From assembly GCF_003259185.1 (NCBI RefSeq), contig NZ_QGMP01000001.1, forward strand, positions 2,356,001 through 2,420,000: DNA of 64,000 nt, written 5' to 3'. Positions 21,916-42,455 of the stretch are shown here, piece by piece (position 1 is the stretch's first letter; every line of letters begins with the position of its first letter). Both the position numbers and the translations under genes were made by a program. The notes below the pieces were generated by a model. That model searched no databases. It saw only the letters and a program-made list of their open reading frames with translations, and had not been told where the DNA came from. Origin of the DNA: Isoalcanivorax indicus (GTDB taxonomy: Bacteria > Pseudomonadota > Gammaproteobacteria > Pseudomonadales > Alcanivoracaceae).

Positions 21916-21987
21916 GCAGAATCTCCTTCGTCATAGGTTACGAGAAAATTCTACTTTTGAGCACCCTTACTTTTCGGGGGGATTACC

Positions 21988-22197
21988 ATTCGACATCACG
22001 GTATAGGCGAAGACATCCACGGCAAACACCTCCCCAAGCTCCGCCACGCGCTCCACCACCAACGCCTTGCGATGCGCCTAGGAATGGCCGCTGAAGTGGT
22101 CTTCACCACAGAGAAAGGCGCGCCGCACACAGCGGCTGATACAGTGATAGTACGGCGTCGCATCCAGCAACACCTGCTGGCTTCGTGCTCTGGGCAT
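21988..22197 (-). pseudogene. Truncated REP-associated tyrosine transposase (RAYT)
   Basis: Read from the ATG at 22197 the frame gives [20 protein letters not shown], then [19 protein letters not shown], an in-frame TAG at 22078-22080, then AHRKALVVERVAELGEVFAV and AYTVMSN. This is the N-terminus of a Y1/TnpA_REP transposase, and it stops exactly where MSNHYH should read on into the HUH motif; the IS3 end begins there. The remainder is not found on the other side of the IS. The gene is thus broken by a nonsense codon and by the insertion. A GGAGG site precedes the start. Confidence 0.8.
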
Positions 22198-22218
22198 GAC
22201 GGCCTCCTTGCTGTCATA

Positions 22219-22376: not shown

Positions 22377-22823
22377 TCATTTTTTTACAGGTGACGTGCC
22401 AGAAAATAAAACAAAAAAAGAAGGAATGAAAGATATAAACAAAATACTGGAAAATGAATCAAGGTGCATTAGAGACCTAATAAAAAGTATGCCATAGTCA
22501 CCTGGTATTACAAAGTACAAATAAACCAAAGATGAGAAAGAGCAAAAAAACGAGAAAAACAAGGAGTACCCAGAACGAGACAATTCCATGAGAAAATAGA
22601 ATAATGCAGAGCATACCATCACGCACAGCATCACCCCCAACGGAGGCCACCCAAAAAGGTTCGGACTAAATGAATAATATGCAGACATCAACCTCTCAAA
22701 GACAAAGGCATACAAAAATGAAGCCGCAACATAAAAAACATTCCTAAGCACATGGCATTTCATATAAACAACACCAAAAAAATCAATTAATCTGGATAAG
22801 GACTGTCGCCACAGGGAGGGCAT
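22377..22823 (-). CDS. Small AT-rich membrane protein, candidate Rhs immunity protein
   Basis: Up to 148 aa; starting at the second methionine (22763) gives 128 aa (MKCHVLRNVFYVAASFLYAF...). Four hydrophobic helices are visible, including VMLCVMVCSALFYFLMEL, YSLFFSFFCSFSSLVYLYFV and ILFISFIPSFFVLF. No family was recognised. It directly follows the Rhs gene: the first ATG overlaps the Rhs stop region by 37 bp and has AGGTG upstream; the second lies 23 bp after the stop. Base composition is much more AT-rich than the neighbours, as is the Rhs tail. Position, size and composition are those of an immunity gene, but that role is inferred only. Confidence 0.6.
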   Translation of the reverse strand: MPSLWRQSLSRLIDFFGVVYMKCHVLRNVFYVAASFLYAFVFERLMSAYYSFSPNLFGWPPLGVMLCVMVCSALFYFLMELSRSGYSLFFSFFCSFSSLVYLYFVIPGDYGILFIRSLMHLDSFSSILFISFIPSFFVLFSGTSPVKK

Positions 22824-25800
22824 TCACACCTGCAAAAATCAGAGCATTCCATATCACATTTTATGCCTTTGCTGGCCACCTGACATGCGCGCTTTGCAGG
22901 ATTGATCTGGATTGGTATCCCGAAAGGTTTTACTTCCTTTCCGGGGATGAGATTGCAAAGAGCACTACCACTCGACTCTGACTTCATGCAATTCTCCATA
23001 CATGAACAATTATGAGTGGGTGGATAAACGGCATGATCCCAAGGCTTTGCTCTCATTCCATCATCATCGAACCTACTAATAGGATTACTCTCCGCGTATA
23101 TGTAATAATTCACTCCGCCGCCAATACCAATTGGATCACTTTGCATATAACGCCCTAGACTACCGCTATACTCACGATGAAAATTATAAAGAAGCCCTTT
23201 CTCTTCGTCATAATATTGCCCCGGGAACCTGATAGGGTTGCTGACTTTCTCTATATAAATCTCCACCGATCCAAAAGCTTGCCAATATGCGCCCCAGATC
23301 ACCTCTCCCCCTCTGCCGAAAAGCTTCAGTGGCTGGCCGATATGGCCTGCATAGTAATAACCGATACTATAATCCTCACCGTCCCGCCTGAACAAGGGAT
23401 CTGTCATCCACATACTATTAGGCCAATATTGATATTCGGCAATCAGCGATCCATTATCATCGTATTCCGCCAATAGGCCGCTATCATCGTAGTGGAAGTA
23501 AATTGTTCCTTCTTGAGTAGTCTTACTTACTCGCCGACCGAACGGATCATAGCGGTAGCTTCCCAGTATCGCACCGCCCTCAATCCGAACCTGCCGCAGA
23601 CGCTCGGCAAGATCATATTCGTATAGCGTAACCGTGCCATCCTGCTCGACTTTGCGCACGGTATGTCCGTTTGCATCGTACTCGAAGGTGGCTCCGGGCT
23701 TGCTGATCAATTGATGATTTTCATTATATTCCCAAGGCTCACCACCACCTTCTGTCAAGCGATTGGCCACACCATCATAGGTGTACGACTCGTTCTGCAA
23801 CCCCATATCTTCTGCGAACCGGGCTTCAATCAAACGATATAGCTCGTCATAGGTGTACAGATGCTCCCCTGTTTCGGAATCGATACGGACAATGTGATTT
23901 TCACTATTGTACTGGTAGCTTCTGTAGGCACGCGGTGTGTCCGCTGCGTCCAGTAGTTCTGTTGTACCGGGACGCAGCAGGCCATCTACATCATGACGGA
24001 TTCGCGTGCCGCCGGGATATACCGTTTCAATGGGAGTGCGCCATTGGTACTCCGTTACCGCTATAGTGCCTTCGCCGGGAATAGTCAGGCTCTGGAAGTC
24101 ACCATCCGGAGTCCACGTGTAGGTATAGGTCACACCCTCCGGGTTCGTATAGGTGGCTTTACGGCCATCCTGATCATACGTATAGCTGTGCGTTTTGCTG
24201 AATGGACCGTAGTTGACGGTTACTTCCGTGACACGCCCCAGAAGATCATATGCATAGCTACCACTACTTACTGTACTGCCATCCTGCTGGTCGCTATAAG
24301 CCGTCAGTAGGCCCAGGGCGTTGTACTCGAAGGACGAGGTGCGCCCTGGTGTGTTCTGGTCTTTTGCTTGCGGGCTGGCGTAATAGTTGACTGCGATCAG
24401 TTGGCCAGCATCGTCATAGCTATAATGAGTGATCTGGCCCATGCCATTTATTTCACTCTTGCGCAAACCACCGGGGTAATAAGTATAGTCACGCGTTTCG
24501 CCTCCGGGGCGAGTTTCTCTTGATAAACGTCCATGAGCATCATAAGTAAAGGTGGTAGTGCTTCCTTCCGGATCAGTGACCGCGATCAGATTATCGCGCG
24601 CATCGAATTCAAGCCGTGTCATACCACCGATGGCATCGACCATACGTATCGGGCGCTGCAAGGCGTCGTAGGAGGTCACTGTCTCCAGGCCTTCAGCGTC
24701 CAGCTCCGTGACGGGGTTGCCCGCAGTATCGTAACCCACACGCCGAGTCTGGCTGATCTGCCCTATCTCGCTGGTGGTATCTATCCGTGTGATCCGGCCC
24801 ATTTCGTCCAGCGTGAATGCTTCACTATAGGTTGGATAGTCGACGGCCGTCAGGCGCTCTCCGTCATAGTGATAACGAATACTGTTTCCCGAGGCATCCG
24901 TTTCCTGGGCCAGGCGCCCTTCTGCGTCATACTGCTGCTGTGTCATGGCGCCACTGGGAAGCCTCACGCCAAGCATGCGTCCGTTCTCGTCATACTCGAA
25001 TACTGTCTTGTGACCCAACGCATCCGTAATGCTCAGTGGCCGCCCGGCGCCGTCGACCTCCCACTGGCTTGTTGCGCCATTGGGAAGAGTCATACCGGTC
25101 TTGTCACCCGCTGTGTTGTAGTGGTGTTCGGTGATACGGTCCAGTGGGTCTGTTTCACCCAATAATTTGCCTGCAGCATCATACTCATACCGGGATATCG
25201 GCCCGCGCGCGTCCACATACACCGACGGGTTACCCAACGCATCAAACCCACCGTGCTCGGGATGCACAAACGCAGTCACTTCATTATCCGGCGCCGTAAT
25301 GCGAATGCGATTTCCGTGGTCGTCGTACTCATAGACGTACAGAGCATCCGGGGTGTCGCCGCTGCTGCGGTATAGCACAGACAACAATTGCCCATGACTG
25401 TCGCGGGTGTAGGTGGTCACTTGCTCATCCGAGGTGTCGGCAGCCAGCACCTGGCGCGTCAGGGCGCCATGCTCGTCGTATTCCCAGGTGCTGACGGTGC
25501 CATCCCAATCGGTATGGCGGGTGCGCTGGTGGTGTACCGGGTGCCATTGCGTATGTTGCTCTGCACCATCGCTGCTGCGGTGGCGGCGAATCACGTTGCG
25601 GCGTTCGTCAAACCAGGTAGTCAGGGTTTCACCATAACGATCTGTGCGTTCGGTGCGGGCCAGGTAGGCAGCCGGTTTGCCAGCGTCGCTGTTGCGAATA
25701 TTGGCGGGGCGTTCGGCGCGGGTGGATTCATCGCCGTATAGCCCGGCCGGGGCGCCGCCTACGGCTACTTCTTCCCCGTCACTGAGAAAGCTGCGCACGG

Positions 25801-26899
25801 AGAATTCGGTTTCGCCGTTAACGATGCGTGCGGCGACCGCGCCCAGGGCGTTGTAGCGGGTTTCCACGGTGCGGCCATCCGGTTCGCGACGAATCTGAAT
25901 AAAGGTATCGGCCTCGCCGGAGTTGCTGAAACGTGTGGCGTGGCCATCCGGGTTGACCAGGCGGGTCATCAGGCCCGCATCGTTTACTTCAATCGTGCTG
26001 GCGCGGCCTTCCGGGTCGGTCACGCTGGTGATATGTCCCTGGCTGTTATACGCGTAAAGCCAGTCGTGACCCAGCACGTCGTTCACGCGCACCAGGCGAT
26101 GGTCTGAATCGTAGTGATAACTGACGCGTCGGCCGGTGTAATCCTCTACTGCCACGGGACGGTGATATACGTCGCTCACGCCTTCGCCCTGCTGGAAGGT
26201 CACGCTTTCGTATTCGAAGGTCAGGATCACTTTATCGAAGGTATCGCGTACCGCCACAAGGTTGCCGGCGCTGTCGTAATGCAGAGTGTTGCGGTTGCCA
26301 TAACGGTCTGCAAACGCCTGGGTTTGACCATTCAGGTCGTAGTCCATGGTGTCGTGGTTGGGGCCGCGCCAACGCAGAAGGTCGCCCTCGCGGCGCAGGC
26401 TGTCGGCGTAGTTCACGCCGCTGCTGCCGGTGCCGGGGTTCTGGGTGCGGTAGAGCACCGGGTTGTCCTCGGTCACTGATCCGGGCAAGGGGTAATAACC
26501 GAAGCCTGCGCGGAACACGCCGTTGCGCAAGGTTGTAGCCAGGTCATCCACGATGCCCGGGCGGTGGAGCAATACGCTGCCGATCTGCACCTGGGCCTCA
26601 TGGCTCTGGTCGGTGACCGGCGCCCAGCGGCGGTTGAATTCCCAGCGGCCACCAATCCAGGTGCGGCTGCTGTGGAGATAACCGCCCATCACCTTGACGC
26701 GAATATCCTGCGCTTCCATGCGCAGCAGGCCGTTGCGGGTCTCGCTGGCGACATCAAAGTCGTGCTCGATACCGGGCGCGGCGTAAAGCGGTGCCGCCAC
26801 CAGCAGGCAGATGCTGCCGAGCCAGCCTTTCCATGATCCCTTCAATGTCATCCTGCGCATGATCCCTTCCCGTTTTTCTGTATTCGTTGTAATGCTCAT
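22787..26899 (-). CDS. Exported Rhs/YD-repeat protein with Cys-rich variable tail
   Basis: A 1370-aa protein with a Sec signal (MRRMTLKGSWKGWLGSICLL... ending LYAA) rather than a PAAR/VgrG-type N-terminus. Residues about 190-1250 are YD repeats (YDSAGNLVAV, YDAEGRLAQE, YDALQRPIRM, YDPFGRRVSK), expected to fold as an Rhs beta-cocoon. The core ends with the Rhs boundary region YSGSLGRYMQSDPIGIGGG and YIYAESNP. An 89-aa tail follows (nt 22790-23056) with eleven cysteines and no recognised toxin motif. The start may be ATG 26899 or ATG 26860, which has a better ribosome site (GGGAAGGGATC). It begins 15 bp after the 3685-aa gene. The core is GC-rich and the tail AT-rich. Confidence 0.88.
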   Translation of the reverse strand: MSITTNTEKREGIMRRMTLKGSWKGWLGSICLLVAAPLYAAPGIEHDFDVASETRNGLLRMEAQDIRVKVMGGYLHSSRTWIGGRWEFNRRWAPVTDQSHEAQVQIGSVLLHRPGIVDDLATTLRNGVFRAGFGYYPLPGSVTEDNPVLYRTQNPGTGSSGVNYADSLRREGDLLRWRGPNHDTMDYDLNGQTQAFADRYGNRNTLHYDSAGNLVAVRDTFDKVILTFEYESVTFQQGEGVSDVYHRPVAVEDYTGRRVSYHYDSDHRLVRVNDVLGHDWLYAYNSQGHITSVTDPEGRASTIEVNDAGLMTRLVNPDGHATRFSNSGEADTFIQIRREPDGRTVETRYNALGAVAARIVNGETEFSVRSFLSDGEEVAVGGAPAGLYGDESTRAERPANIRNSDAGKPAAYLARTERTDRYGETLTTWFDERRNVIRRHRSSDGAEQHTQWHPVHHQRTRHTDWDGTVSTWEYDEHGALTRQVLAADTSDEQVTTYTRDSHGQLLSVLYRSSGDTPDALYVYEYDDHGNRIRITAPDNEVTAFVHPEHGGFDALGNPSVYVDARGPISRYEYDAAGKLLGETDPLDRITEHHYNTAGDKTGMTLPNGATSQWEVDGAGRPLSITDALGHKTVFEYDENGRMLGVRLPSGAMTQQQYDAEGRLAQETDASGNSIRYHYDGERLTAVDYPTYSEAFTLDEMGRITRIDTTSEIGQISQTRRVGYDTAGNPVTELDAEGLETVTSYDALQRPIRMVDAIGGMTRLEFDARDNLIAVTDPEGSTTTFTYDAHGRLSRETRPGGETRDYTYYPGGLRKSEINGMGQITHYSYDDAGQLIAVNYYASPQAKDQNTPGRTSSFEYNALGLLTAYSDQQDGSTVSSGSYAYDLLGRVTEVTVNYGPFSKTHSYTYDQDGRKATYTNPEGVTYTYTWTPDGDFQSLTIPGEGTIAVTEYQWRTPIETVYPGGTRIRHDVDGLLRPGTTELLDAADTPRAYRSYQYNSENHIVRIDSETGEHLYTYDELYRLIEARFAEDMGLQNESYTYDGVANRLTEGGGEPWEYNENHQLISKPGATFEYDANGHTVRKVEQDGTVTLYEYDLAERLRQVRIEGGAILGSYRYDPFGRRVSKTTQEGTIYFHYDDSGLLAEYDDNGSLIAEYQYWPNSMWMTDPLFRRDGEDYSIGYYYAGHIGQPLKLFGRGGEVIWGAYWQAFGSVEIYIEKVSNPIRFPGQYYDEEKGLLYNFHREYSGSLGRYMQSDPIGIGGGVNYYIYAESNPISRFDDDGMRAKPWDHAVYPPTHNCSCMENCMKSESSGSALCNLIPGKEVKPFGIPIQINPAKRACQVASKGIKCDMECSDFCRCECPPCGDSPYPD

Positions 26900-26914
26900 C
26901 GTCTTGCCTCGCCC

Positions 26915-29900
26915 TCAGCAGCCATCAGGCGGGCCGCAGCCATCGCAACCGCAACCACCCGGGTTGGGCGGGGCACTGGGCGCCGGACGGCTGCCGACAC
27001 CGCCCCCGCCGCTACCACCACCCCAACCGCCACCGGCACCCCCACCGATGCTGCCGCCAGAACAGCTGTTACGCTGCCGCCCGCTGATGCTGCTGGAAGC
27101 GCTCGTAGACACCCGCTCACCATTGGCGCACTCGTATTCACACGTCACCCGGGGGCGCAGCGGAGTGGGGTTACGGCAATTGCTGCCTGATGTGGAGACC
27201 TGCTGCGACATGAGTCCGTACAGTGCCATCTGACGACTGGCAGCCAGGCTGCGATCCTCCAGCAGCACCGAGGCGATCTCGTTGCTGGTCTGGCCAACAT
27301 CCTGCAATGCGGTCACGCGATAGGGCATCACCACCACCTGCCCGGCTTCCAACTCGGCCGGGGGCGTCGTCATAAACTCCAGGCGATACCACTCGTTGCT
27401 CAGGTTCAGATCCGCCTGCACGTTCTCCGCGCGGATCAGGCCGTAGTTGGTCAAGCGGAGTTCGCCCTGGAACACATCGCCTTCCCGCATGGGCGGCAGC
27501 TGCACGCTGGCCGGTTCCATCACCACCACGGCGGCGGGCACATTGGTTTCAAACACGGCGCGCAGCACGATGTCGTACTGGTCCTGAAGGGTAATTTCCT
27601 CAACCGACCACTCGATGGTCACCAGCTGATTCAGCAGGAAGACGTCCTGATTGCCGGTGACGCCGGGGCGCACCCAGATATGCCCCGATCGAGCCTCACG
27701 ATTTGGTGCGCTGGCGCGGTAGTAGTACTGCCCCACCGGCAGGTCATCGAATTCCGCCAGGCCGAAGCTGTCTGTGGTGGCCTGGTAGGTCTCGCTGAGC
27801 ACATTGACGTTCTGCAAGCTGATGCGCGCGCCTTCCAGTCCGGGAATCGGATTGCCGTATTCATCCAGTGTGGCGGTGTAGATATCCGAGGCATGGAAAA
27901 TAAAGCCGCCGGTATCCGCGTTGGTGACTACCACATAGACAGGAATATCGAACGGCGCCAGATTATCGCCGGTGATCCGCAGGCGGTATTCGTACTCGCC
28001 TTCACCCACCAGTTCGCCAGGGTTGGCCGACACGGTAATGCCCAGGCTGCTGCCCGCTTCCAGTGCGGCCGGCAAATGGGCCACTGCACTGATCCAGGCG
28101 GGCGCACTGCCGCTGCCAGAGGTGTTAACCAGGCTCACACGTGGATTGGCCAGCGCGCCGTGCCCCATGTTGGTCACCAGCATCTGTTCGCTGGTGTATT
28201 CCCCGGCGCGGGTGCCCAACTGCAAATAGGGCCGGCCTGCCCGCAGCGCCGGGGCCGAGGCGACAATCTGGTAACTCAGGTTGATGGACGACAAACGCTG
28301 GCCTGTATGGTCACGCAACACCAGCGGAATCTGGCCCTGAGCCCCCGGGCTGTCGCTCGCGGTAGCGTACAGGGTCCAGCGATGCCGCTCGCCCGGCGCC
28401 AGCGTGATCGGTTCACCCAGTTCCAGGCTGACGCCATCGGGAATGCCACTGCCGATCTGCCAGTGCAGGCCTTCCACGGTTTCGGTGCCGACGTTGCGCA
28501 ACTCCACCGGAATGGCCTGCCGGTAGTCACGCGGCAGATTGCCTTGCAGGCGCGTGGGCTGCACGGCGATACCGCCCACCGTGAAGGTGTGCTCGCTGCT
28601 GCGCAGTGCGCTGCCGGGATAAATGGCCGATACCGTATAAACACCGGCATCCTGAAGCGTGGGCCGGAAACGATAGCTGAAGCGGCCCTGCGCATCCGTG
28701 GTGACGGTGCGCACACGTTCGAAGCCATTGTTGTCCAGCACCAGTTGCACGGGCACATCGGCCAGGGCCGCGCCTGAGTTTTCTGACCAGGCATCACCCT
28801 GAATCAGTACCTCGTTGTCTTCACCTTCCACCCAGGTCAGTGCGGTCGGGGTCAGGGTATCGATACGCGGCTGATACGGCAGATCCCGCGTCGACACCTG
28901 ACGGGAGGCGCGCATGCCCGGTGCCATGACACTGACCAGGCCCTGATGACGATGCTCGGTGGCCGTAATATCCAGCACCACACGCACATCGTCCTGAGTA
29001 ATAGCGGCGGTGCTGATTTCCAGCGCGGAGGACACGAACTCCTCACCGGGATAGACCCTCGCCACCGTCACGCCGTCGGTGCGTGTCACAACATTACCCG
29101 TGGCCAGATGCACAGGCTGGCGCATCAGCAGGCTGTCATCGTCTACGTCGCGCAGCTCGATAAAGGCGGTTTGCGAGGGGCGGCTGCCGTTGTGGCGTGC
29201 CGTTTCCACTTCCACCGGCAACGCGCCCGGGTTGCGCAGCACCAGCCGCAGTGTGCCCTGCGAGACCTTCTGCAGGCCCGCCACTTCGACATCCGCCTGG
29301 TAGCGGCGCGCCTCCACCGGCACATCGGCGGCAAACGGCATATGCAACCGGGTGCCGTCAGCCAGTGTTGCGGTGATCATCGCCTGCACAGTGGTGGTGC
29401 CCGGGGTCAGACCTTCGGCAGCGGCCAGTGGCAGGGCCAACTCTGCTGTATCGCCCGGCACCAGGGTGCTGACACGGTCTGTGGCCTCGGTGGCATCGTG
29501 CAGCCAGGCGGTCACCGCCGTCACCGGAGCAGGCCCACGATGGCTGACACGCAACGGCACACGGTTGTGAATGCGATCCCCCAGCGGCCCGGACATCTCG
29601 CCCAGGGTGATACGCAGATCCGGCACTTGCCACTCACGCGCGCGCAACACCTCTCCGTCTTGCGTACGCGCTTCGATACGGTAACGACGCCCCTGCGGAT
29701 CAGGCTGATAGTCTTCGTCGGTTACGGTGTACTGGCCCTGCCCGGCCACCAGGCCTCCCGGCGGGGTCAGCGGCCGATCACTCGCGCCGGTCAACACATG
29801 GTAGCTGTGCACCGCTTCGCTATCGTGGCGCCAGTGCAACGTCAGACGATCACCGTCGCGATGTGCCTCCACGTCGGCCAGCGGCAATACGGCGTCGCTC

Positions 29901-32900: not shown

Positions 32901-35900
32901 CCCCGCCCCTCGGGCTCAACACTGACCGCAACCGGCGCGGGAGGCTCATTGTCATAACGCACGGTGACCGTGACCGGTTCGCTGAGGTTGCCCGCCCGGT
33001 CCATGGCCCGGAATACCAGCTCGTTCGGGCCCGGCTCCAGATGCACAGTGTAAGACCACTGCTCCGACTCACCGTGGCCCACCACCGTTTCGGCGCCCGC
33101 GCCCATCACGATAGCGGCGTAGGCTTCGCGCGTTCCGGTAAGTTGCAGCGCTTCGTCCGTTACGGACACCGGCACCGGATCGATCACCGGCGGCGGTGGC
33201 GGTGTAGTGTCCAGCGTAAAGGCTGCGGACTGCACGGCACTCTGATTACCCGCAAGATCCTGCAACATCACCGAGATCGAGTATTCGCCCTGTGGCAGGG
33301 AAATGCCTGGCACAAACACCACACCGGCATCCGACACCGCAAGCTGGCCCTGCAACTGCACACCGTCGCGCATCAGACGCACCCAGGACTGACTCAGGCT
33401 CAGGCCGGCCCCGTCCTCGATCGCCAACACTTCGATATAGTCCGGCGCGATATTGATAAAGCCATCCGGCTGCACACCGATAATCTGCGGCGCGGTCGTG
33501 TCACGCAGGAACGCCAGCACCGTTGCAGGCGAAACATTGCCCGCCTGATCCACCGCCGTCAGGCTGAAAGAGTTCATGCCTTCGGTAAGCGGCAATTCCG
33601 TCTGCCAGCTACCGGAGGGCGATGTCGACACAGCCACCTCCCCCAGGAATACGGTGCTGTGCGCCTCCGCAGTGCCTTGCAGCGTCACGGCGGTTTGCGA
33701 TGTGATATTGACCTGACCATCCACCTGCCATTGCGCTACCTGCGGCGCAGGCGGGGGTGTCGTCTTGATCTGCACGGTGGTCTGGAACACATCATCCGGC
33801 TGGCCAGGCTGACCATCACCGGACTGATCCATGCCGTGGCCGGATTCCGACAGCAAGCCGGGGCCTACGCTGAGCAGGTACTCGCCTTCGGCTGTCAAGG
33901 ACGAGATCAAATGGAAGCGGTACCGCAGGGTGGACAACCGCTCTGCATGAGATAACGAGGCAACCCCATCAATACGAAGCTGACCCTGAGAAGCCGAGGT
34001 CAAATCCAGTGGCTTGTTGAAACGCACATCCAGATATGTCACGGGGCCCGCTGTTACCGGCGAACCTGCCACTCCAGTGACGTGAAGCAGCGATTGAGGG
34101 TCCTCAACATGGATAATTGCCTCCTCGATCTGCGAGGCCAACCAACCGGATCGGTACACACGAGCGCGCACCTGAAGCAGCTCATCCATGCCTATTTCGA
34201 ACGGCTGTTGATATATCGATGATTCAGATGTGGGGTCACTGCCATCCAGGGTATAGCGGATAACCCCTTCACCCGAGGGTTCAGAAATCGAGAGCTGTTG
34301 CGGCGTGAAGTAGCGATCCGACGGCAGAGAAAAGACCGGGGATTCAGCAGTGCCCCAGGAAAAAAGCACATGGTCACTGATTCGGTTAGCCTGACCATCC
34401 GGGTTCTGAACGGGATGATAGGGGCCACTGGGGTGACCCCAATCAACGGTGCGGGCGTCAACCTGAGCGCTGGCTGATTCTGCATAGACACCACCACCAT
34501 TGTTAGCTATCAAGCATTGATCAAGAGTTACCGGCGCCCCTGCATTATAAACGGCCCAAGTCTGAGCATGAGTTATCTCGCAGCCTTTAACCAGTGGCGA
34601 GGAGGAGCCTGACAACCACAAGCCATACCCCTGAGCAGTCGTATTGTTCGAGCCCTGCCCCGCATATCGAATACGCACATGCTCCAGCTCCGGGGACGCC
34701 GTTCTGATCCGCACCGCTCCCCGATGAGCAGTACTACCTGTTGAGGTTGCCTGCCCCCCCCCATACTCTACCGTCACATAACGTAACAACCCGGAGCTTC
34801 CATTATGGAAATCAATATGGCCCCAATCTCCTTGTTCCGGGACCTCTGAAGAAGAAGTAAAAACAACACGCCCTTCCTCATTTCCACCATCAGCAATCAG
34901 GCTGCCGTATACATCCAGATAGGTCCAGCGGTCATTTCCATAAACGGTGACGCCTGGACGAATCGACAATACTGCGGTTGCACGAATCACCATTCTTCCG
35001 GTCAGACTAACGTCTGAGTCCCAGGTAACCTCAGCGTCAATAGTGCCTTGTATTTCAAGTGCATCTCGCCGACCGTTGCCTGTGTAGGTATTCCCCAGGA
35101 TCACCGGCGCATGGCTGGAAGAATAATTAACCCATCCAACGCTGGCCGAGTTGACAACCTCATTATCCCTGAACGTAAAACTGCCAGTGGATTCTGAATA
35201 CAGCCCATAGGTTTGGGCGCCCTCGATAACACTATGCTGGATAATCGGCGCGCCGCTTCCTGACAACCACAATCCATACCCCTGAGCAGCGGTATTATTC
35301 GGACCCTGCCCCGCATATCGAATATGCACATGCTCCAGCTCCGGGGACGCTGTTCTGATCCGCACCGCCCCCCGATGAGCAGTGCTACCTGTTGAGGTTG
35401 CCTGCCCACCGCCATACTCTACCGTCACATAACGTAACAACCCAGAGCTGCCATTACGGAAATCAATGTACCCCCAATCTCCTCGTGAGGGAACTTCAAA
35501 AGAAGAGGTAAAAATAATACGCCCTTCCTCATCTTCCCCATCAGCAGTCAGGCTGCCGTATACATCCAGATAGGTCCAGTGGTCATTCCCGTATACGGTG
35601 ACGCCTGGACGAATCGACAATGCTCCGGATGCACCAACGATAACCCTGCCGACGAGCCGGACATCCGAGTCCCAAACAACCTCCGCATCAATAGCGCCTT
35701 GCACCTCAAGCGCATCACGCCGACCGTTTCCAGCATAGGCATTACCCAGGATCATCGGCGCATGGCCGGAAGAATAATTAACCAACCCAACGCTGGCCGA
35801 GCTGATAACCTCATTATCCCTGAACGTAAAACTGCCAGTGGATTCTGAATACAGCCCATAGGTTTGGGCGCTCTCGATAACGCTATGCTGGATGATCGGC

Positions 35901-37972
35901 GCGCCGCTTCCTGACAACCACAATCCATACCCCTGAGCAGCTGTATTGTTCGAACCCTGCCCCGCATATCGAATATGCACATGCTCCAGCTCCGGGGAGG
36001 CCGTTCTGATACGCACCGCTCCCCGATGAGCAGTGCTACCGGTTGTGAGTGCCTGCCCACCGCCATACTCCACCGTCACATAACGCAACAACCCAGAGCT
36101 GCCATTATGGAAATCAATGTACCCCCAATCCCCTCGTGATGGCACCTCAGAAGAAGAGGTAAAAACGATACGCCCATCCTCATTTTCACCATCAGCAATG
36201 AGGCTGCCATATACATCCAGATAGGCCGAACGGTTATTCCCGTATACGGTGACGCCTGGACGAATCGACAACACTCCGGATGCACCAACAATAACCCTGC
36301 CGACGAGCCGGACATCCGAATTCCAGACAACCTCCGCATCAATAGTGCCTTGCACCTCAAGCGCATCACGCCGACCGTTGCCAGCGTAGGCATTTCCCAG
36401 AATCACCGGCGCATGGCTGGAAGAATAATTAACCAACCCAACGCTGGCCGAGTAGATAACCTCATTATCCCTGAACGTAAAACTGCCAGTGGATTCTGAA
36501 TACAGCCCATAGGTTTGGGCGCTCTCGATAACGCTATGCTGGATGATCGGCGCGCCGCTTCCTGACAACCACAATCCATACCCCTGAGCAGCTGTATTGT
36601 TCGAACCCTGCCCCGCATATCGAATATGCACATGCTCCAGCTCCGGGGAGGCCGTTCTGATACGCACCGCTCCCTGATGAGCTGAGCTGCCTGTTGTGAG
36701 TGCCTGCCCGCCGCCATACTCCACCATCACATAACGTAACAGCCCGGAGCTACCATTCTGGAAATCAATATGCCCCCAATCTCCTCGTAACGGAATTTCG
36801 GAATCTGACGTAAAAACGATGCGACCAACGTCACTTTGTGCACTCGCCGTCAAGTTTCCACTTACACTCAAGTTCACGCTTCGTGCTGTCGACTGAATAA
36901 TGCTACCCGCAGCAATATCCAGTGTGCTTTCGGCAGATACCGAAGCAGCAGAGACAAGCCGATACGGCAGAATATGCCCTATGCCCGACCTATCCCATTG
37001 AAGCGTATGGTCCGAAAGATTGCCGCCAAGGCCAGCCCTTGCCTGATAACCCAGCGCTTCACCCCAGATTCGCTGCCCGGATTCCTCACGATAAGGCTCA
37101 ATCAGAAAATCTACGATCTCACCCTGCGTCGTGCTGAGAGTGGACTGGCCTGACCAGGTTCCGTCGATCCAGGTTTGGTAACTACCACCTTCTGCGCGAT
37201 GCATCACTCGAACCCGGCTGTATCCGCTAGGCAGGGAGAAGCGCAGGGATATGCCCCCTGCCGTGGCGACGGTGTGCAGACCGGAGACCACAGCAGACGA
37301 CGGAGAGACAGGAACGGCCAGGGTTTCCGTATGCTGATAACCATTGTCCCCGACAATACTCACAGAGATATCGTGAGCTTGCTCTTCGGCGACCAGCTCC
37401 ATCCTGACGCGGCCATTGATAAGCCTGCCGCGCTGCTGGCCGTCCACGAAAACAGTGCCGTCGAATACCGGCATACCGTTTGCATCCACAATATCGCCAT
37501 ACAGGCGATAGGTGCCGCCCGGGCTGATATCGCTCTCCAGAATCGTCAACGGTAGTGCCTGCACATCACCCAGTACTCGGTGTTGCAATGGCAGCCCTTT
37601 TTCCGATTCCGCGCAGGCGTATTGCACCCCCAGCCGGTAACGCACGGCTTGAGGATCTTCCGCAAAAAGATGAAAGCCCCCGGCTAAACCTGTCTCCAAC
37701 AGCGTCTCGTGCTGCTGTGGCGGCTCCTCAGGATCTGCTGCCGGAGTTTCATAAACAGCGTAAAGGGAGTACTGCGCACCGGGGTTGCGATCTTGCCAGA
37801 CCACACGGGCGCCACCGGGCTGGTCGGTGTAGAGGACGCCGCCAGCAATCGGTCGGTAATCCGGGTCTTCCGCGCAATTGTCTGTCGCCCAGGCCTGCGG
37901 GCTCAGGCCGACCATCAGCGCGCACGCCGCACCCCACAAAACGTTATTGATCTTCTTCATCTTGTCTTTCAT
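26915..37972 (-). CDS. Giant secreted protein: beta-helix repeats, FN3/Ig-like modules
   Basis: A 3685-aa protein with a Sec signal (NVLWGAACALMVGLSPQAWA). Residues about 330-1150 are parallel beta-helix repeats built on a 217-aa unit containing GDWGHIDF, NGSSGLLRYV and YGLWLSGSGAPIIQHSVIE. About 1195-1275 resembles a chitobiase/Fn3-associated module (IRYTLDGSDPT). From there to about 2700 come serial Ig-like and FN3 domains, then CARDB-like and carboxypeptidase-regulatory-like modules near 3400 (DSFGLAEFDDLPVGQYYYRA). The C-terminus is Ser/Gly-rich and ends in the cysteine cluster GGCGCDGCGPPDGC. No catalytic motif was recognised; it looks like an adhesin or scaffold. It sits between the 1010-aa gene (14-bp gap) and the Rhs gene (15-bp gap). 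Confidence 0.85.
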   Translation of the reverse strand: MKDKMKKINNVLWGAACALMVGLSPQAWATDNCAEDPDYRPIAGGVLYTDQPGGARVVWQDRNPGAQYSLYAVYETPAADPEEPPQQHETLLETGLAGGFHLFAEDPQAVRYRLGVQYACAESEKGLPLQHRVLGDVQALPLTILESDISPGGTYRLYGDIVDANGMPVFDGTVFVDGQQRGRLINGRVRMELVAEEQAHDISVSIVGDNGYQHTETLAVPVSPSSAVVSGLHTVATAGGISLRFSLPSGYSRVRVMHRAEGGSYQTWIDGTWSGQSTLSTTQGEIVDFLIEPYREESGQRIWGEALGYQARAGLGGNLSDHTLQWDRSGIGHILPYRLVSAASVSAESTLDIAAGSIIQSTARSVNLSVSGNLTASAQSDVGRIVFTSDSEIPLRGDWGHIDFQNGSSGLLRYVMVEYGGGQALTTGSSAHQGAVRIRTASPELEHVHIRYAGQGSNNTAAQGYGLWLSGSGAPIIQHSVIESAQTYGLYSESTGSFTFRDNEVIYSASVGLVNYSSSHAPVILGNAYAGNGRRDALEVQGTIDAEVVWNSDVRLVGRVIVGASGVLSIRPGVTVYGNNRSAYLDVYGSLIADGENEDGRIVFTSSSEVPSRGDWGYIDFHNGSSGLLRYVTVEYGGGQALTTGSTAHRGAVRIRTASPELEHVHIRYAGQGSNNTAAQGYGLWLSGSGAPIIQHSVIESAQTYGLYSESTGSFTFRDNEVISSASVGLVNYSSGHAPMILGNAYAGNGRRDALEVQGAIDAEVVWDSDVRLVGRVIVGASGALSIRPGVTVYGNDHWTYLDVYGSLTADGEDEEGRIIFTSSFEVPSRGDWGYIDFRNGSSGLLRYVTVEYGGGQATSTGSTAHRGAVRIRTASPELEHVHIRYAGQGPNNTAAQGYGLWLSGSGAPIIQHSVIEGAQTYGLYSESTGSFTFRDNEVVNSASVGWVNYSSSHAPVILGNTYTGNGRRDALEIQGTIDAEVTWDSDVSLTGRMVIRATAVLSIRPGVTVYGNDRWTYLDVYGSLIADGGNEEGRVVFTSSSEVPEQGDWGHIDFHNGSSGLLRYVTVEYGGGQATSTGSTAHRGAVRIRTASPELEHVRIRYAGQGSNNTTAQGYGLWLSGSSSPLVKGCEITHAQTWAVYNAGAPVTLDQCLIANNGGGVYAESASAQVDARTVDWGHPSGPYHPVQNPDGQANRISDHVLFSWGTAESPVFSLPSDRYFTPQQLSISEPSGEGVIRYTLDGSDPTSESSIYQQPFEIGMDELLQVRARVYRSGWLASQIEEAIIHVEDPQSLLHVTGVAGSPVTAGPVTYLDVRFNKPLDLTSASQGQLRIDGVASLSHAERLSTLRYRFHLISSLTAEGEYLLSVGPGLLSESGHGMDQSGDGQPGQPDDVFQTTVQIKTTPPPAPQVAQWQVDGQVNITSQTAVTLQGTAEAHSTVFLGEVAVSTSPSGSWQTELPLTEGMNSFSLTAVDQAGNVSPATVLAFLRDTTAPQIIGVQPDGFINIAPDYIEVLAIEDGAGLSLSQSWVRLMRDGVQLQGQLAVSDAGVVFVPGISLPQGEYSISVMLQDLAGNQSAVQSAAFTLDTTPPPPPVIDPVPVSVTDEALQLTGTREAYAAIVMGAGAETVVGHGESEQWSYTVHLEPGPNELVFRAMDRAGNLSEPVTVTVRYDNEPPAPVAVSVEPEGRGTDVGLSWAGYDEAGQSSTVVQYRIYRAAAGFTDIAQAEYVTSLPAGAREYRLTGLPRNLPVFVAVVAVDTHGFLDSQVQSVGATPVDIRPPERPGVLQVESRHDALLVSWAPSADTDGDLKHYRVYLGGELHAETSETSLLIDGLAAATRHDVAVTAVDHDGNASPSRTNPGVTLLANPVLTEGVPGMSRAILQWQPTEPGDLVARQRIYVADAAFTDIAEATPVLTVAANRVQATVTGLQNDRTYYLAVAAENLSGGINPVVNSIAVTPEEDTDGPEITSAFFDAEALQPGLVITRRGTLRFTAQDESGVASIAAWFGETALGTARSGPEYRISVSTPNFEDGEQLLRVSATDTLGNVSEHTWPVSILLDPAEPAMITAPSNGLMTADEQIALRLAGEAGTVVTVQVNGADQITAQPLDSRGEYRGEILLQEGENQISVRSRYANRTQFGEPSEVVVVTLDSVVPDRPSGLTARSRPGRQVDLAWIGQTDSIAGFNVYRAMTADMPLQAATKVNAQPITRNELADIPPFDDTYFYRVTAVGITGLESAPTSPVQAVADGTPPTLEAVTYTPQGAHDPETQRIGVGRLDVSLLFSEPLRAVPYTALLIEGLVPIPVTLQRDAQNDRRYHGHITVHPHTPSGRVTVSSTAVDVIGNRAALTYSDNAPWIDTDGPALDTLQVMPGSPIDNNPSDSGGLNRVLVTAAADAELVGEPVLVPHIDDVPVSGYASGLSLLSEIDPHTGRRHWSGTFDLPAEAGLDSAGDPAVQRLSFTWQAEDALGNSSERITAHNAFQVYQGDLPPFEAPRDLVGHARAGGEIALSWTLDGENHGVRVFRRGPGESAAVAVLDLPADTAAWRDTGAHGFAAADRDGLQEGTYIYAVATLRQVGDDEAESGRSNEVSVDADATPPQAPEGLDATVQDTGVELTWTHAEPASVATYRVYRLATPLQGEALPDEDALVATPADTTWQDPQPSELTRYYQVAAEDAAGNISPLSEPVHVSDAVLPLADVEAHRDGDRLTLHWRHDSEAVHSYHVLTGASDRPLTPPGGLVAGQGQYTVTDEDYQPDPQGRRYRIEARTQDGEVLRAREWQVPDLRITLGEMSGPLGDRIHNRVPLRVSHRGPAPVTAVTAWLHDATEATDRVSTLVPGDTAELALPLAAAEGLTPGTTTVQAMITATLADGTRLHMPFAADVPVEARRYQADVEVAGLQKVSQGTLRLVLRNPGALPVEVETARHNGSRPSQTAFIELRDVDDDSLLMRQPVHLATGNVVTRTDGVTVARVYPGEEFVSSALEISTAAITQDDVRVVLDITATEHRHQGLVSVMAPGMRASRQVSTRDLPYQPRIDTLTPTALTWVEGEDNEVLIQGDAWSENSGAALADVPVQLVLDNNGFERVRTVTTDAQGRFSYRFRPTLQDAGVYTVSAIYPGSALRSSEHTFTVGGIAVQPTRLQGNLPRDYRQAIPVELRNVGTETVEGLHWQIGSGIPDGVSLELGEPITLAPGERHRWTLYATASDSPGAQGQIPLVLRDHTGQRLSSINLSYQIVASAPALRAGRPYLQLGTRAGEYTSEQMLVTNMGHGALANPRVSLVNTSGSGSAPAWISAVAHLPAALEAGSSLGITVSANPGELVGEGEYEYRLRITGDNLAPFDIPVYVVVTNADTGGFIFHASDIYTATLDEYGNPIPGLEGARISLQNVNVLSETYQATTDSFGLAEFDDLPVGQYYYRASAPNREARSGHIWVRPGVTGNQDVFLLNQLVTIEWSVEEITLQDQYDIVLRAVFETNVPAAVVVMEPASVQLPPMREGDVFQGELRLTNYGLIRAENVQADLNLSNEWYRLEFMTTPPAELEAGQVVVMPYRVTALQDVGQTSNEIASVLLEDRSLAASRQMALYGLMSQQVSTSGSNCRNPTPLRPRVTCEYECANGERVSTSASSSISGRQRNSCSGGSIGGGAGGGWGGGSGGGGVGSRPAPSAPPNPGGCGCDGCGPPDGC
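34540..36930 (-). repeat. 651-bp tandem repeats inside the giant gene
   Basis: About three and a half copies of a 651-bp (217-codon) unit. The same segment, GDWG(H/Y)IDF-NGSSGLLRYV, starts near 36793, 36142, 35491 and 34840. Long stretches, for example the parts encoding GLWLSGSGAPIIQHSVIE, are nearly identical between copies at the DNA level. The last copy diverges after GLWLSGSSSP, and a degenerate half copy precedes the first. The repeats are less GC-rich than the FN3-coding part of the gene. Confidence 0.85.
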
Positions 37973-37986
37973 CCCCGATATCCCTC

Positions 37987-40900
37987 TCAGGAGAACCAGC
38001 GGCGGAAAAAGCCGCCGATGGCCTCAATGATTCCACCAATCACACCGATGATGCGGTCGATCAGCCCCGGCGGGTCTTCCGGTTCGGCGGGATCATCCGG
38101 GTCATCAGGATCGCCCGGCTCTTCGGGTTCACCTGGTTCCTCTGGATCCGTCGGCTCTTCATACCAATCACGCTCATGGCGGAAACGCACCAGTGCAGGA
38201 GCATGGATACCATCGTGGGAATACACGTAGAGATGTCGCCCGTCATTGGACGGTGCCATCAGACTGGCGTGGTGCATGCTGGTCAGCACTTCGCCTGCCG
38301 GATCGGCATCACCTTGTGCCAGGGAGTGGATGGCGTCCGCTATGCCGCGCCCGAGGTCGTACCCGTACACGGCCACTCCATTCACTCCGCAGGCGCCGTA
38401 GAACAGGCGTTGCCCCAACCCCAGAGCGAGGGCGGTTTCGCCACATTGTTCGTGGGATACTTTTTCTTCCAGCGACTGAAAACGCAGTGCCGAGGTATCC
38501 AGCACACGCATTCCCGCACTGGCCCGGTTCGCCGCAAGGGCGTAGTCGCCGCCCTCGTGGCCCACCAGAGCCGACGCTGCGGGCCATTCCTCTGCAGGCA
38601 GCACAAATTCAGCGTAATCCGCCAAGGTGCCGTCGTTGGCGTTGAAGGGCACAGCCCCGGTGCCCGATGCGCCTGACACCAGAAGCAGATCCGTCCCTGC
38701 AACCGGCAACACTGCGTTGATGCCAGACAACAGGGCCAGCCCGGTGTTCTGCTGGCTGCGTGTCTGGGCAAGGCGCAGATCGCCGTCGCTCAGGTCCAGA
38801 AGATAAATGGCTGATCTGTCACTGACCGGCAACCAGGCCCACTCGCCGGAGGCTGAGAGCGCCGGGCGCCCCAATGCACTGTCACCCGGTGCGTCGTGGA
38901 GGGTCAGCAACCGAATCAGTGTCACCGCCTCCAGCGCGGGATCGGCATCCAGCAACGCCACTTGGTAACCCGACTCGCTTCGACCGTTCACCAGCAAGCG
39001 ATCATCTGGCAATGGGGTGATCCGGCCTTCCACAAACGGCAATGCGAGAGTGCCGATATCGGCGAGCTCGCCCGATGGCAGCGTTCGCGCCAGCACCGTC
39101 AGCACACCGTCGCCGGTAAGCCGAAACATACGCTCGCCCATGTCGTCCAGCACCATGTCTGTCCAGACTGGCGCTTCAAGGTCGAGTGGTTGCTGATCAT
39201 CAACAAACAGGCGCGCCACTGTCAGCGGCGTGCTGTCCGGATCGTTCGGGTCACTGCCTGCCAGGTATTCTTCCAGCAGGGTAAAGCCGTCGCCGTCCAG
39301 GTCCTGCGCGCCCTCCACGGGATCGTAGGGGTCGCCACCGAGTTGTTCCTTCAACCAGTCCGGGATGCTCTCGCCGTCACCGTCTTCATCCACAGGCACC
39401 ACTGACACCGACACCAGCATCTGGCTCTGGCCGTAAGCGTTGCTTGCGGTAAAGCTGAGTTGATAGTGCCCAGCCGCCGACAGTGGAACCGGCCAGTAGG
39501 CAATGCCCTGGGTGGCGTCGGTCATGTCCAGATAGGCCCCCTGTGGGCCAGCCTCCAGGGCCAGCGTGACCGGGGTGCCCGCCGGACCCTCGGCACGCAC
39601 CAGAAACGCCAGCGTATCGCCCGCGTTCACCTGCCTGGCAGGCACCGGCTGGAACACCGGGGCATAGCCTTGCTGCTCGGCCTGGCCGACTGTCACTTGA
39701 TAAAGCTCAGCGGGTTGCTGGGTGAAGATGTTGAGGAAGTAGTTGAAGCTGATCTTGTCGTCGTCGCGCTCCTGCGAAACCCAGACATTGGCGCGCGACA
39801 GGGCGCGCGCCTCACCGCCATGCAGCGCGTGGGCAGACAACACCTGCTGCCCCTGCAATGCGGGCATGTCGAGCTTGATATAGGTGGTTTCTCCTTGATT
39901 GACCGCGGCGGGCTCAACGGTGATCAGCGCGCCGCCTCCAGGTCGTGCTGCCGACGTATGGGTGGCTGACCGCCGCACCACGGGCTGGCAATGCTGGCAC
40001 ACGGGTAACGACTGCCCTGTTGCCTCGGACTCGAACAGCAGGAAGTCCTGCCCCTGCACTACCAGGAAATCGCGCACCTGATCGCGGCCCGGCAGGTCTG
40101 CCAGCACGTCCTTGACCAGAAAATGGGTGTTGATGCCGGAGATCAGGGAGGTCAGCGCGCCGCCAAGGTCCTCCGCATGGGTATAGGTCGCGCTGAAATC
40201 GGTGAATTGGCCCGACAGCGTGCTCTGCATGATCCAGCGGGCGACACGTGCCACCCCGGGCTCAAGATCACCCAGGTGGACGTTCAGCGAGGGCTCGGCC
40301 ATCTGGTTGCCGACATAACTCCCGAGTATCTCGAAGGCCACCGCCAGCCCCTGCTCGTTCTCCACGATGCGCGGCTGCGACGAGGCAATACGGAAATCGC
40401 GGGCCGTGCCCTCACCATTGTTGATGGCGCGCAGGCCCAGGGTGTATGGCACCGGCGGCTCGATTTCAGGGGTAAAGGGGTCGTTGGCGATCACTTCGCG
40501 GGTCAGGAAGTAATCCAGCGCGATCTCGGGCATGGGCCGCACGATGATGGTGTCAGGCGCCACGCGCACGGTTTCCTGGTCGTTACCGAACCGATAGGCG
40601 ACTTCTGCGCCCACGTAATACAGGGTGCCACTGGGCGACTCGGCAGCGCCCGGCGCCGGCACAATCAGCCACTCCAGCCGTGCGGTGCTGGCGGGTGCGA
40701 TACTGCCGGTGCCGTCGGTAGCGGTGATACCGCTCGACTGATCCAGGGTGATGAAGAACAGGGCATCGGTGCTGCTGGTATTGGAGGTGGCCACCACCGG
40801 ATTGCCGTCGGCGTCGGCAAAGTGCACGTCGATACGCACATCATCCAGCGAGAACTGGTCCAGCCCGTTATTGATGGCCATCCTGGCCATGAAGCCCTGG

Positions 40901-41019
40901 CGCTCGAAGGTGACTTCCTGCTCGATTTCGATCACCACGACGGCGCACAGCGGTTCCGAGGCGCGCGCAGCGGCCATCAACAGCAGTATCAGGCCTGCTG
41001 CCAGTAGTTTTGTTTTCAA
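37987..41019 (-). CDS. Secreted multidomain protein with Ca-binding repeat and propeller-like region
   Basis: A 1010-aa protein starting at TTG after a GGGGAAGGGA site; no in-frame ATG would keep the signal peptide MKTKLLAAGLILLLMAAARA. Residues 20-330 are beta-rich CARDB-like modules. A CQHC pair lies near 345. About 536-605 holds calcium-binding DxDGDG repeats (VDEDGDGESIPDW, DLDGDGFTLLEEYLAGSDP), thrombospondin type 3-like. About 610-945 has a repetitive WD/propeller-like pattern. Then comes an acidic Pro linker (PTDPEEPGEPEEPGDPDDPD) and a hydrophobic C-terminal helix ending GGFFRRWFS. The function is unknown. It precedes the giant gene by 14 bp. Confidence 0.8.
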   Translation of the reverse strand: MKTKLLAAGLILLLMAAARASEPLCAVVVIEIEQEVTFERQGFMARMAINNGLDQFSLDDVRIDVHFADADGNPVVATSNTSSTDALFFITLDQSSGITATDGTGSIAPASTARLEWLIVPAPGAAESPSGTLYYVGAEVAYRFGNDQETVRVAPDTIIVRPMPEIALDYFLTREVIANDPFTPEIEPPVPYTLGLRAINNGEGTARDFRIASSQPRIVENEQGLAVAFEILGSYVGNQMAEPSLNVHLGDLEPGVARVARWIMQSTLSGQFTDFSATYTHAEDLGGALTSLISGINTHFLVKDVLADLPGRDQVRDFLVVQGQDFLLFESEATGQSLPVCQHCQPVVRRSATHTSAARPGGGALITVEPAAVNQGETTYIKLDMPALQGQQVLSAHALHGGEARALSRANVWVSQERDDDKISFNYFLNIFTQQPAELYQVTVGQAEQQGYAPVFQPVPARQVNAGDTLAFLVRAEGPAGTPVTLALEAGPQGAYLDMTDATQGIAYWPVPLSAAGHYQLSFTASNAYGQSQMLVSVSVVPVDEDGDGESIPDWLKEQLGGDPYDPVEGAQDLDGDGFTLLEEYLAGSDPNDPDSTPLTVARLFVDDQQPLDLEAPVWTDMVLDDMGERMFRLTGDGVLTVLARTLPSGELADIGTLALPFVEGRITPLPDDRLLVNGRSESGYQVALLDADPALEAVTLIRLLTLHDAPGDSALGRPALSASGEWAWLPVSDRSAIYLLDLSDGDLRLAQTRSQQNTGLALLSGINAVLPVAGTDLLLVSGASGTGAVPFNANDGTLADYAEFVLPAEEWPAASALVGHEGGDYALAANRASAGMRVLDTSALRFQSLEEKVSHEQCGETALALGLGQRLFYGACGVNGVAVYGYDLGRGIADAIHSLAQGDADPAGEVLTSMHHASLMAPSNDGRHLYVYSHDGIHAPALVRFRHERDWYEEPTDPEEPGEPEEPGDPDDPDDPAEPEDPPGLIDRIIGVIGGIIEAIGGFFRRWFS

Positions 41020-41055
41020 TGTCCCTTCCCCTGATTTTCCCCGATCGTTCCTGTT

Positions 41056-41727
41056 TTACCGGCGGCAGTAAGCCGTCCGACCCACCAGATCCCTCCTGAC
41101 GGAATACCCCGCGTAATCCACCAGTTCGCTTATTGATCCATCCAGCACCACTATCCGGGCCTGAATATCCGTGCGCTCAACCAGCGCGATATCTTCCACC
41201 ACCAGCATGCCGGGTAAGCCAGAAGGCAGCTGATCCATGTTTGAGTAAACGCTCCAGCCGTCCCGCAAGCGGCCAGGATCCAGGTGATCACCGGTAATGA
41301 GCGACACCAGACCAGCGTCTCGTAACAGCAGGCGTGCAGCCTCCGGTACGCCTAGCGTTGAGGTCACGGATGGCTCAGAAGATGATTCATCGATCTGCAG
41401 GTAAGTAGCGGTGAATCCGCTACGATAGAAGCGCTCGCACAATGCCCGGGCATGGCGAGCATCGCCGCCGTGAATAATCAGGAGAGGCTCTGTTGCCCAA
41501 TGACGCTGTGAGAGGACTGCATGAAGAGGGAGTTGCTCGCCTGGCGCCATGGACTCACCACTGACGCCTTCCAGATAGACCTTGCGATACAACTGATAGT
41601 CGGCAGGAACGGCCTGCTCCAGCGAACCACAATCTGCAACCGACATGAAGCGTGGCTCGCTCCAGACCGCCTCCATTCCGGCAAGCAGGCCAATCGCCCA
41701 AAAAAGAAAAAACAATGACTTACGCAC
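41056..41727 (-). CDS. Exported protein, possibly degenerate rhodanese-like
   Basis: A 223-aa precursor starting at GTG with AAGGA just upstream, with signal peptide RKSLFFLFWAIGLLAGMEAV. The segment EPLLIIHGGDARHARALCER followed by FYRSGFTATYLQ resembles the second half of a rhodanese domain, but the active-site cysteine position carries His/Gly, so sulfur-transfer activity is not expected. A second alpha/beta stretch (ARIVVLDGSISELVDYAGYS) follows. The relationship is a pattern judgement and weak. It is the first gene of the accessory operon, 36 bp before the 1010-aa gene. Confidence 0.65.
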   Translation of the reverse strand: MRKSLFFLFWAIGLLAGMEAVWSEPRFMSVADCGSLEQAVPADYQLYRKVYLEGVSGESMAPGEQLPLHAVLSQRHWATEPLLIIHGGDARHARALCERFYRSGFTATYLQIDESSSEPSVTSTLGVPEAARLLLRDAGLVSLITGDHLDPGRLRDGWSVYSNMDQLPSGLPGMLVVEDIALVERTDIQARIVVLDGSISELVDYAGYSVRRDLVGRTAYCRR

Positions 41728-41934: not shown

Positions 41935-42369
41935 TTACGGACGGCAAGCAGCTGGCAGATATTTCGGATCGAGGCCATCACATTCCCAACGAGCAATCTG
42001 ATTGTTCGCGGCGTTAGGAATAGCTTCCAGAGTCATGGTCTCACCAGCATGAACACCGGACTGAAACGCAACCGAAATTGTTCCAGGGCCAGTCAGGCTC
42101 GCGTTACCAGCGCCGAAATACTTACCTTCGAGGTCGGCCAATGCCTGATCAAGCGAAGCACTATCGCCAGCGTCCGGCAGCGCTGCTTCCTCAGCAATAT
42201 ACACACCAATATCAGCGCGAATGCCTGCCGTGGCGCTCAGAGCTTCGGAAGCCTGGGCACGACCAGTGTAATCCTGGTAAGCAGGCAGCGCGACGGCAGC
42301 CAGAATACCGATAATCGCCACCACGATCATCAGTTCGATAAGGGTAAAGCCCTTCTGTACCTGTTTCAT
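41935..42369 (-). CDS. pilA: Type IV major pilin
   Basis: A 144-aa prepilin. The ATG at 42369 follows GGAGAGG. The leader MKQVQKG is cut by PilD before F8, giving a mature N-terminus [20 protein letters not shown] with the conserved Glu at +5. The mature helix [16 protein letters not shown] is typical of type IVa pilins. Two C-terminal cysteines (WEC and AAC, 14 residues apart) would close the D-region disulfide loop. It is divergent from pilBCD, as in P. aeruginosa. It probably depends on sigma-54 and PilR. Confidence 0.95.
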
Positions 42370-42455
42370 AACAGCCTCTCCACAGTCTTTAAGATAAATT
42401 CTTATGCTCGTCCCCCGGATGGCACCCCCAGGTTGCGACGACCTGAACGTTGTAA

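Follow-up and report, generated by a model that had tools for sequence, protein, structure and literature searches.

The 64,000-nt stretch of Isoalcanivorax indicus DNA studied here (the window) raises the question of whether five adjacent genes, among them one for an Rhs protein and one for a giant protein of 3685 amino acids (aa), form a single system. An earlier note on this DNA had proposed one exported system, with the giant and a 1010-aa protein as surface scaffold or export partners of the Rhs effector. Sequence comparison shows these genes to be one divergent version of a gene set that is widespread in bacteria. The reading that we consider probable, with moderate confidence, is that of a polymorphic Rhs toxin-immunity locus, the effector of which would be exported together with two large partner proteins via Sec and then the type II secretion system (T2SS). 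Gene order, co-conservation, gene fusion, variable tails and linkage to T2SS genes form the basis of this reading.

The run occupies positions 22377–41727 of the window and consists of five genes on the minus strand, coding for proteins of 223, 1010, 3685, 1370 and 148 aa. Gene 1 (41056..41727) encodes the 223-aa protein P0005, gene 2 (37987..41019) the 1010-aa protein P0004, gene 3 (26915..37972) the giant P0003, gene 4 (22787..26899) the 1370-aa Rhs/YD protein P0002, and gene 5 (22377..22823) the 148-aa membrane protein P0001, with three hydrophobic stretches; the products of genes 1–4 are predicted to be exported. The open reading frame (ORF) coordinates of the earlier note were recovered, with junction gaps of 36, 14 and 15 bp. 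Its last gene, described as overlapping or nearly abutting, shares 37 bp with the Rhs gene or, from an alternative in-frame ATG at 22763, starts 23 bp past the Rhs stop. The start codons are GTG for the 223-aa gene and TTG for the 1010-aa gene. The Sec-type N-termini reported for the first four proteins were called again, by a crude rule that is also satisfied by the 148-aa protein and by 143 of 436 unlabelled ORFs.

The distribution of these genes was followed with parts of the two large proteins. The whole 1010-aa protein as query matched 18 of 94 relatives, with the own genome counted among them, mainly via a short calcium/TSP3-like repeat, and gave no match in six other genomes of the same genus. 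Residues 1–535 of the same protein were found in 10 of 390 genomes of the order at E<=1e-5, own genome included; residues 2450–3560 of the giant were found at E<=1e-10 in 8 of the 390, all within the 10 positive for the 1010-aa protein (p=3.6e-15). Related loci are not independent events, and the p-values given here are guides. A scan of GTDB species genomes with the N-terminal domain of the 1010-aa protein yielded 138 related stretches, of which the best 80, with flanks of up to 10 kb and many on short contigs, were studied. These 80 loci belong to Gamma- and Betaproteobacteria, Desulfobacterota, Elusimicrobia, a Verrucomicrobium and others.

When the 80 loci were searched in six frames, Rhs was found in 43, a transglutaminase-like protein in 38, the giant in 35 (34 of them via its C-terminal region), a rhodanese-like protein in 29, and GspG, GspF and GspE in 20, 18 and 16, respectively. 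Among the 39 loci with at least 8 kb upstream and at least 3 kb downstream, the C-terminal region of the giant was present in 31, Rhs in 30 and GspG in 13. The same region of the giant was found in 32 of the 33 Rhs loci with at least 8 kb upstream, L077 being the exception. Twenty control Rhs regions, hand-picked from 41 Rhs places (18 genomes; five regions shorter than 20 kb) and centred on Rhs rather than, like the 80 loci, on the 1010-like gene, contained no 1010-like domain, no giant and no rhodanese-like gene, and a transglutaminase-like and a Gsp match once each. The earlier note had held that homologues which never co-occur would speak against it; in other genomes the 1010-aa protein, the giant and the Rhs protein recur together.

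The usual order in Gamma- and Betaproteobacteria is giant, Rhs, small gene or genes and 1010-like gene, followed in some by gspG, gspF and gspE. Many Desulfobacterota show the order transglutaminase-like, 1010-like, rhodanese-like and a giant-sized ORF. In two loci (L114 and L128) the giant and the Rhs protein are fused in one ORF; an apparent Rhs-1010 fusion in L108 was dropped because of a run of N between its parts. In genome G079 the matched region of the giant is followed, about 2 kb on, by an Rhs gene. The Methylomonas plasmid pFW12EY carries giant, rhodanese-like, transglutaminase and 1010-like genes and, over the 37.5 kb shown, no Rhs, and in a Nostoc plasmid the 1010-like match sits within a Calx-beta giant. 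Partial second 1010-like copies with the look of cassette debris, some next to Rhs, were seen in G187:C17, G357:C11 and G115:C71. As to the one-system view, its conserved gene set stands; it had missed the probable rhodanese-like nature of gene 1, the transglutaminase and GspG of the relatives and the giant-Rhs fusions.

The 1370-aa protein contains RHS_repeat (E=7e-84) and the Rhs-associated core end TIGR03696 (E=1e-20, residues 1207–1282). In agreement with its earlier description as an Rhs protein without PAAR or VgrG parts, no PAAR, VgrG or SpvB/TcaC family was among its Pfam matches at E<=0.1. The core motif DPIG...DDDGM is followed by a Cys-rich tail of 87 residues (22787..23050, minus strand). 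When the 38 Rhs proteins with complete tail and core anchor (from the window and the 80 loci) were compared at E<=1e-3, the cores were alike in 703 of 703 pairs and the tails in 24 of 703, 21 of these 24 within seven HINT-type tails. The genes after Rhs were alike in one of 630 pairs, and 35 of 36 start within 30 bp or overlap. Conserved cores with varying tails and unrelated next genes point to a toxin-immunity pattern, and the swappable C-terminus that the earlier note gave as a known trait of Rhs proteins is borne out by these counts, together with an adjacent, unrelated small gene.

Ten tails of relatives, chosen by eye as promising, were compared with Pfam, and nine were matched: PT-HINT in six and HNH in two (one just below cut-off), together with GH-E, Tae4 (38.3 bits, cut-off 27) and phospholipase A2; Tox-REase-9 and GIY-YIG were below cut-off, and the tail of L064 had no Pfam match. 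A Cx3C...Cx3C segment opens the tails of L064, L091, L109, L116, L125 and L129, ahead of the HINT or toxin parts; by eye, these openings loosely resemble the tail of the window. The 148-aa membrane protein may be the immunity protein for the Rhs tail. It matches no Pfam family at E<=0.1, nor do the 1010-aa and 223-aa proteins, and the roles that the earlier note gave these three are therefore without annotation support.

The 1010-aa protein is composed of an N-terminal family domain, an Ig-like stretch and a calcium/TSP3-like repeat; an acidic proline-rich stretch and an amphipathic C-terminus were judged by eye. Its conserved N-terminal region (residues 20–535; 39415..40962, minus strand) serves as family marker, and no family model was found over the N-terminal part. 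In the three 1010-like relatives that were scanned, the C-terminal parts contain laminin-G, CBM6, F5/8C, dockerin, TSP3 or RTX modules. In a tree of 46 sequences the protein of the window groups with gammaproteobacterial sequences (98/92).

The giant has a beta-helix part, followed by Ig and fn3 modules, a conserved C-terminal region (residues 2450–3560; 27293..30625, minus strand; aligned with 26 relatives) and a Gly-rich, Cys-bearing end. The family models over it are limited to general Ig/fn3-like modules. Four direct repeats in the beta-helix part (34608..36860, minus strand) are spaced by exactly 651 bp, their 300-nt stretches being 82–89% identical to the reference copy, and the length of the gene may vary by recombination between them.

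A profile of the rhodanese-like proteins of the set matched the 223-aa protein at E=2.6e-6, the next non-member being at 0.44. On this match, gene 1 is probably a divergent rhodanese-like component of the same set. Two relatives match PF00581 below cut-off, and two plasmid relatives are annotated rhodanese-like. No active-site Cys was seen in the presumed rhodanese loop, placed by eye, in the 223-aa protein or in 12 other displayed rows of 33. The Cys-His-Asp of the stand-alone transglutaminase-like proteins is conserved in at least 90% of 33; the genome of the window has three transglutaminase-like matches, all beyond the window. The 223-aa protein ends in ...YCRR. A terminal CxC or CxxC within the last 20 residues was found in loci L061–L140 in 18 of 30 rhodanese-like proteins, 6 of 28 giants and 11 of 46 Rhs proteins, some of the Rhs pairs belonging to HNH-type tails (L115, L129). 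It was found in 3 of 302 other ORFs of at least 150 aa, a number that includes spurious ORFs, and in none of 36 transglutaminase-like, 65 1010-like and 39 Gsp proteins. This pattern stands out in the rhodanese-like proteins and is less marked in the other groups.

GspG, a pseudopilin, was chosen to test the link to type II secretion because GspE and GspF resemble pilus proteins, and its models were run because loose GspE/F similarity would count the window as positive via pilB and pilC. The best GspG candidate exceeded the GspG equivalog cut-off in 20 of the 80 loci (L130 included), while pilA of the window gave no match to GspG at E<=1e-15. Sixteen of the 20 have Rhs, three (L103, L113 and L127) are of the transglutaminase type, and L135 has neither in the flanks covered. 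GspE, GspF or GspG was found in 17 of 43 Rhs loci versus 1 of 20 controls (p=0.006). In the Rhs loci the Gsp genes lie downstream and co-directional, and in L109, L121, L130 and Eleftheria they abut or overlap the 1010-like gene. In G187 the genes gspG, H, J, K, L and M, as known from T2SS, adjoin the set; in G357, J and L were over cut-off and K was below. The co-directional run of Eleftheria terrae (NZ_CP106952.1) consists of genes for IPT/TIG, hypothetical, Ig-like giant, Rhs, ankyrin and 1010-like proteins, then gspG, gspF, gspE, three hypothetical genes, a cohesin-annotated secretin-like gene, three pilin-like genes, rhodanese-like and transglutaminase. Its gaps from the 1010-like gene on are of 34 bp or less, with many overlaps, and the ankyrin and 1010-like genes are 273 bp apart. 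In the genome of the window, gspE/F/G/K/M-like genes and T2SSL lie together at C1 (~1.588–1.596 Mb); three secretins are encoded on other contigs. The machine of L130 and L116 differs from T2SS in a TPR-bearing secretin and in proteins without Pfam or NCBIfam identity that are encoded between gspE and this secretin (L130 11752–14449, L116 18139–19382), at the expected place of GspL/M; one match of these proteins was below cut-off.

From these results we infer a single transcript, a complex, a T2SS route, killing, immunity and a role of the rhodanese-like protein. Genes 1–4 would be on one transcript and their products would cross the inner membrane via Sec, after which the giant and the 1010-aa protein would assemble at the surface with the Rhs shell. 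The folded proteins would be moved out by a T2SS, which is linked in some relatives and chromosomal in this genome. The variable tail would be enclosed in the Rhs core and then released into competitors, and the 148-aa membrane protein would shield the producer against its own tail. Once the partners have passed Sec, the rhodanese-like protein, in relatives along with the transglutaminase-like enzyme, would act on them, possibly at the C-termini that bear Cys. A more elaborate version is put forward tentatively, as somewhat doubtful: a distinct interbacterial weapon in which a dedicated T2SS-like machine, equipped with pseudopilins and a TPR-secretin of its own, would assemble an outer surface complex of beta-helix/Ig giant, 1010-type protein and toxin-loaded Rhs shell, the Cys-tipped C-termini of the partners would be matured by the stand-alone transglutaminase-like enzyme together with a rhodanese-like protein that is inactive, and the window would represent a cargo module served by the general T2SS.

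Several findings weigh against the toxin-immunity reading with export through T2SS. Rhodanese or transglutaminase genes occur without Rhs, giant or Gsp in the flanks covered of 25 of the 80 loci, so that Rhs is not a constant part of the set, and six further loci show no partner. No GspE/F/G gene was found in the flanks covered of 26 of the 43 Rhs loci, and the window itself has no linked T2SS or transglutaminase gene, the linked machinery genes being those of a type IV pilus. T2SSL was present in each of the 15 genomes tested (10 carriers and five non-carriers); the mere presence of T2SS is thus no support, and this step rests on the linkage. A control Rhs locus without 1010-like gene or giant (L184, G095) was observed to adjoin gspE/F/J/K/L-like genes. 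No convincing relatives of the tail of the window or of the 148-aa protein were found in L001–L140, and the second core motif of the window is DDDG where most relatives have DPxG. Finally, the 1010-aa protein of the window forms the longest branch of the tree (1.66 versus a median of 0.4), which makes its position unsure.

The many loci without Rhs in the flanks covered, chiefly of Desulfobacterota and with 1010-, rhodanese- and transglutaminase-like genes and in some a giant-sized ORF, would suit an adhesin or surface-matrix complex, formed mainly by the giant and the 1010-aa protein, with Rhs as optional module and toxicity secondary or absent. The modular build of the giant from beta-helix, Ig and fn3 parts and the laminin-G, CBM6, F5/8C, dockerin, TSP3 or RTX modules of the three 1010-like C-termini are in line with it. 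However, Rhs tails and next genes vary as toxin-immunity cassettes do, with nuclease and amidase-type domains, and we regard this explanation as rather unlikely. Likewise judged unlikely is that the set is real and the copy in the window is decaying, being divergent, without linked transglutaminase or machine, and with a short rhodanese-like gene and a possibly inactive tail. The long end branch would agree with decay, as would the deviation of the 1010-aa protein at 18 of the 120 columns that are conserved among the other 45 rows and of the giant at 32 of 157 conserved columns, each the highest in its alignment by a choice of columns that is biased against the window. In addition, the same-genus genome G003 retains a single fragment similar to the 223-aa protein, directly after its pilin gene (45% over 49 residues; L152 5884–6030), by which comparison this genome probably once carried the set and later lost it, and the run in the window is followed closely downstream by an IS3-type element and a split transposase gene. 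Against decay stand five intact ORFs across 19 kb, one of them 11 kb without a stop, and the retained tight junctions.

Export of the Rhs protein by another route (type VI secretion system (T6SS), lysis or vesicles), the T2SS linkage being a hitch-hiking of surface genes, would be consistent with the Rhs loci that show no Gsp gene and with the nearest solved structures, several of which are T6SS-associated Rhs proteins (8qja, 8qjc, Tse5). The absent PAAR/VgrG match, the Sec-type start and the co-directional Gsp genes that abut or overlap the 1010-like gene speak against it, and another route is considered improbable. That five unrelated surface genes are neighbours by chance is hardly credible: other genes do stand beside the pilin gene in the same-genus genomes examined, but the co-occurrence counts, the fusions and the recurring gene order contradict it.

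The run is flanked by pilA (41935–42597) on one side and by the split transposase gene and the IS3-type element, which has an integrase core domain, on the other, with nadC farther on. Between pilA and the run a terminator-like hairpin of 12 pairs (41912–41885) and a weak promoter-like site (41810–41783), both on the minus strand, were found as consensus matches, in a scan with numbers near chance (19 terminator-like sites versus 13.6 expected, 11 promoter-like versus 9.0 expected). The same scan, which also picks up chance sites, listed no terminator-like site on the minus strand at the four junctions. The transposase gene (20828–22200), which we take to be REP-associated (RAYT) by its look, is interrupted by the IS3-type element, and an uninterrupted relative lies near the pilin gene of the same-genus genome G006 (L153 4406–5428). 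The link of the run to the type IV pilus was judged positional, since same-genus genomes have other genes beside the pilin gene (six same-genus stretches and one same-family stretch compared). A defence system was also considered and rejected, PADLOC giving 0 matches for the 148-, 1370-, 1010- and 223-aa proteins.

Tc-type toxin complexes have an Rhs shell that encloses a variable tail, and large partner proteins. At sequence level they match the present locus through the Rhs core alone; the 1370-aa protein has no SpvB/TcaC family, and the partners here belong to other families. With T6SS Rhs effectors the locus shares the Rhs core, its conserved end and a variable tail, but it has no PAAR/VgrG match, a Sec-type start and a giant partner gene instead. 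In Zhang et al. 2012 (PMC3482391), Sec/T2SS-class Rhs toxins are described with signal peptide, Rhs repeats, a variable C-terminal toxin of HINT or nuclease types and immunity genes. The signal peptide (here predicted), the repeats, the variable tail and the HINT/nuclease types agree with what was found here, and the small gene after Rhs is a candidate counterpart of the immunity genes. The entry for this export class in Table 1 of that paper gives no signature neighbouring genes, in contrast to the giant, 1010-aa family, rhodanese-like, transglutaminase-like and T2SS genes that recur in the present loci. The paper also describes inactive transglutaminase domains fused to the toxin, whereas here the transglutaminase-like protein is encoded by a separate gene and its Cys-His-Asp is conserved. 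The parts are of known kinds, namely Rhs polymorphic toxins, T2SS and Ig giants; no report of their standing association, of the 1010-type family or of the rhodanese/transglutaminase pair was found in a search of open-licence papers, which is weak evidence of absence.

For the signal-peptide Rhs toxins of Gram-negative bacteria, which in Table 1 of PMC3482391 form a default Sec/T2SS class without markers, the gene set provides marker genes. Two long conserved regions little covered by existing family models have been brought out, in the window about 515 and 1110 residues long, and the proposed T2SS route would be directly testable in cultured strains of Marinobacter, Microbulbifer, Cellvibrio and Eleftheria.

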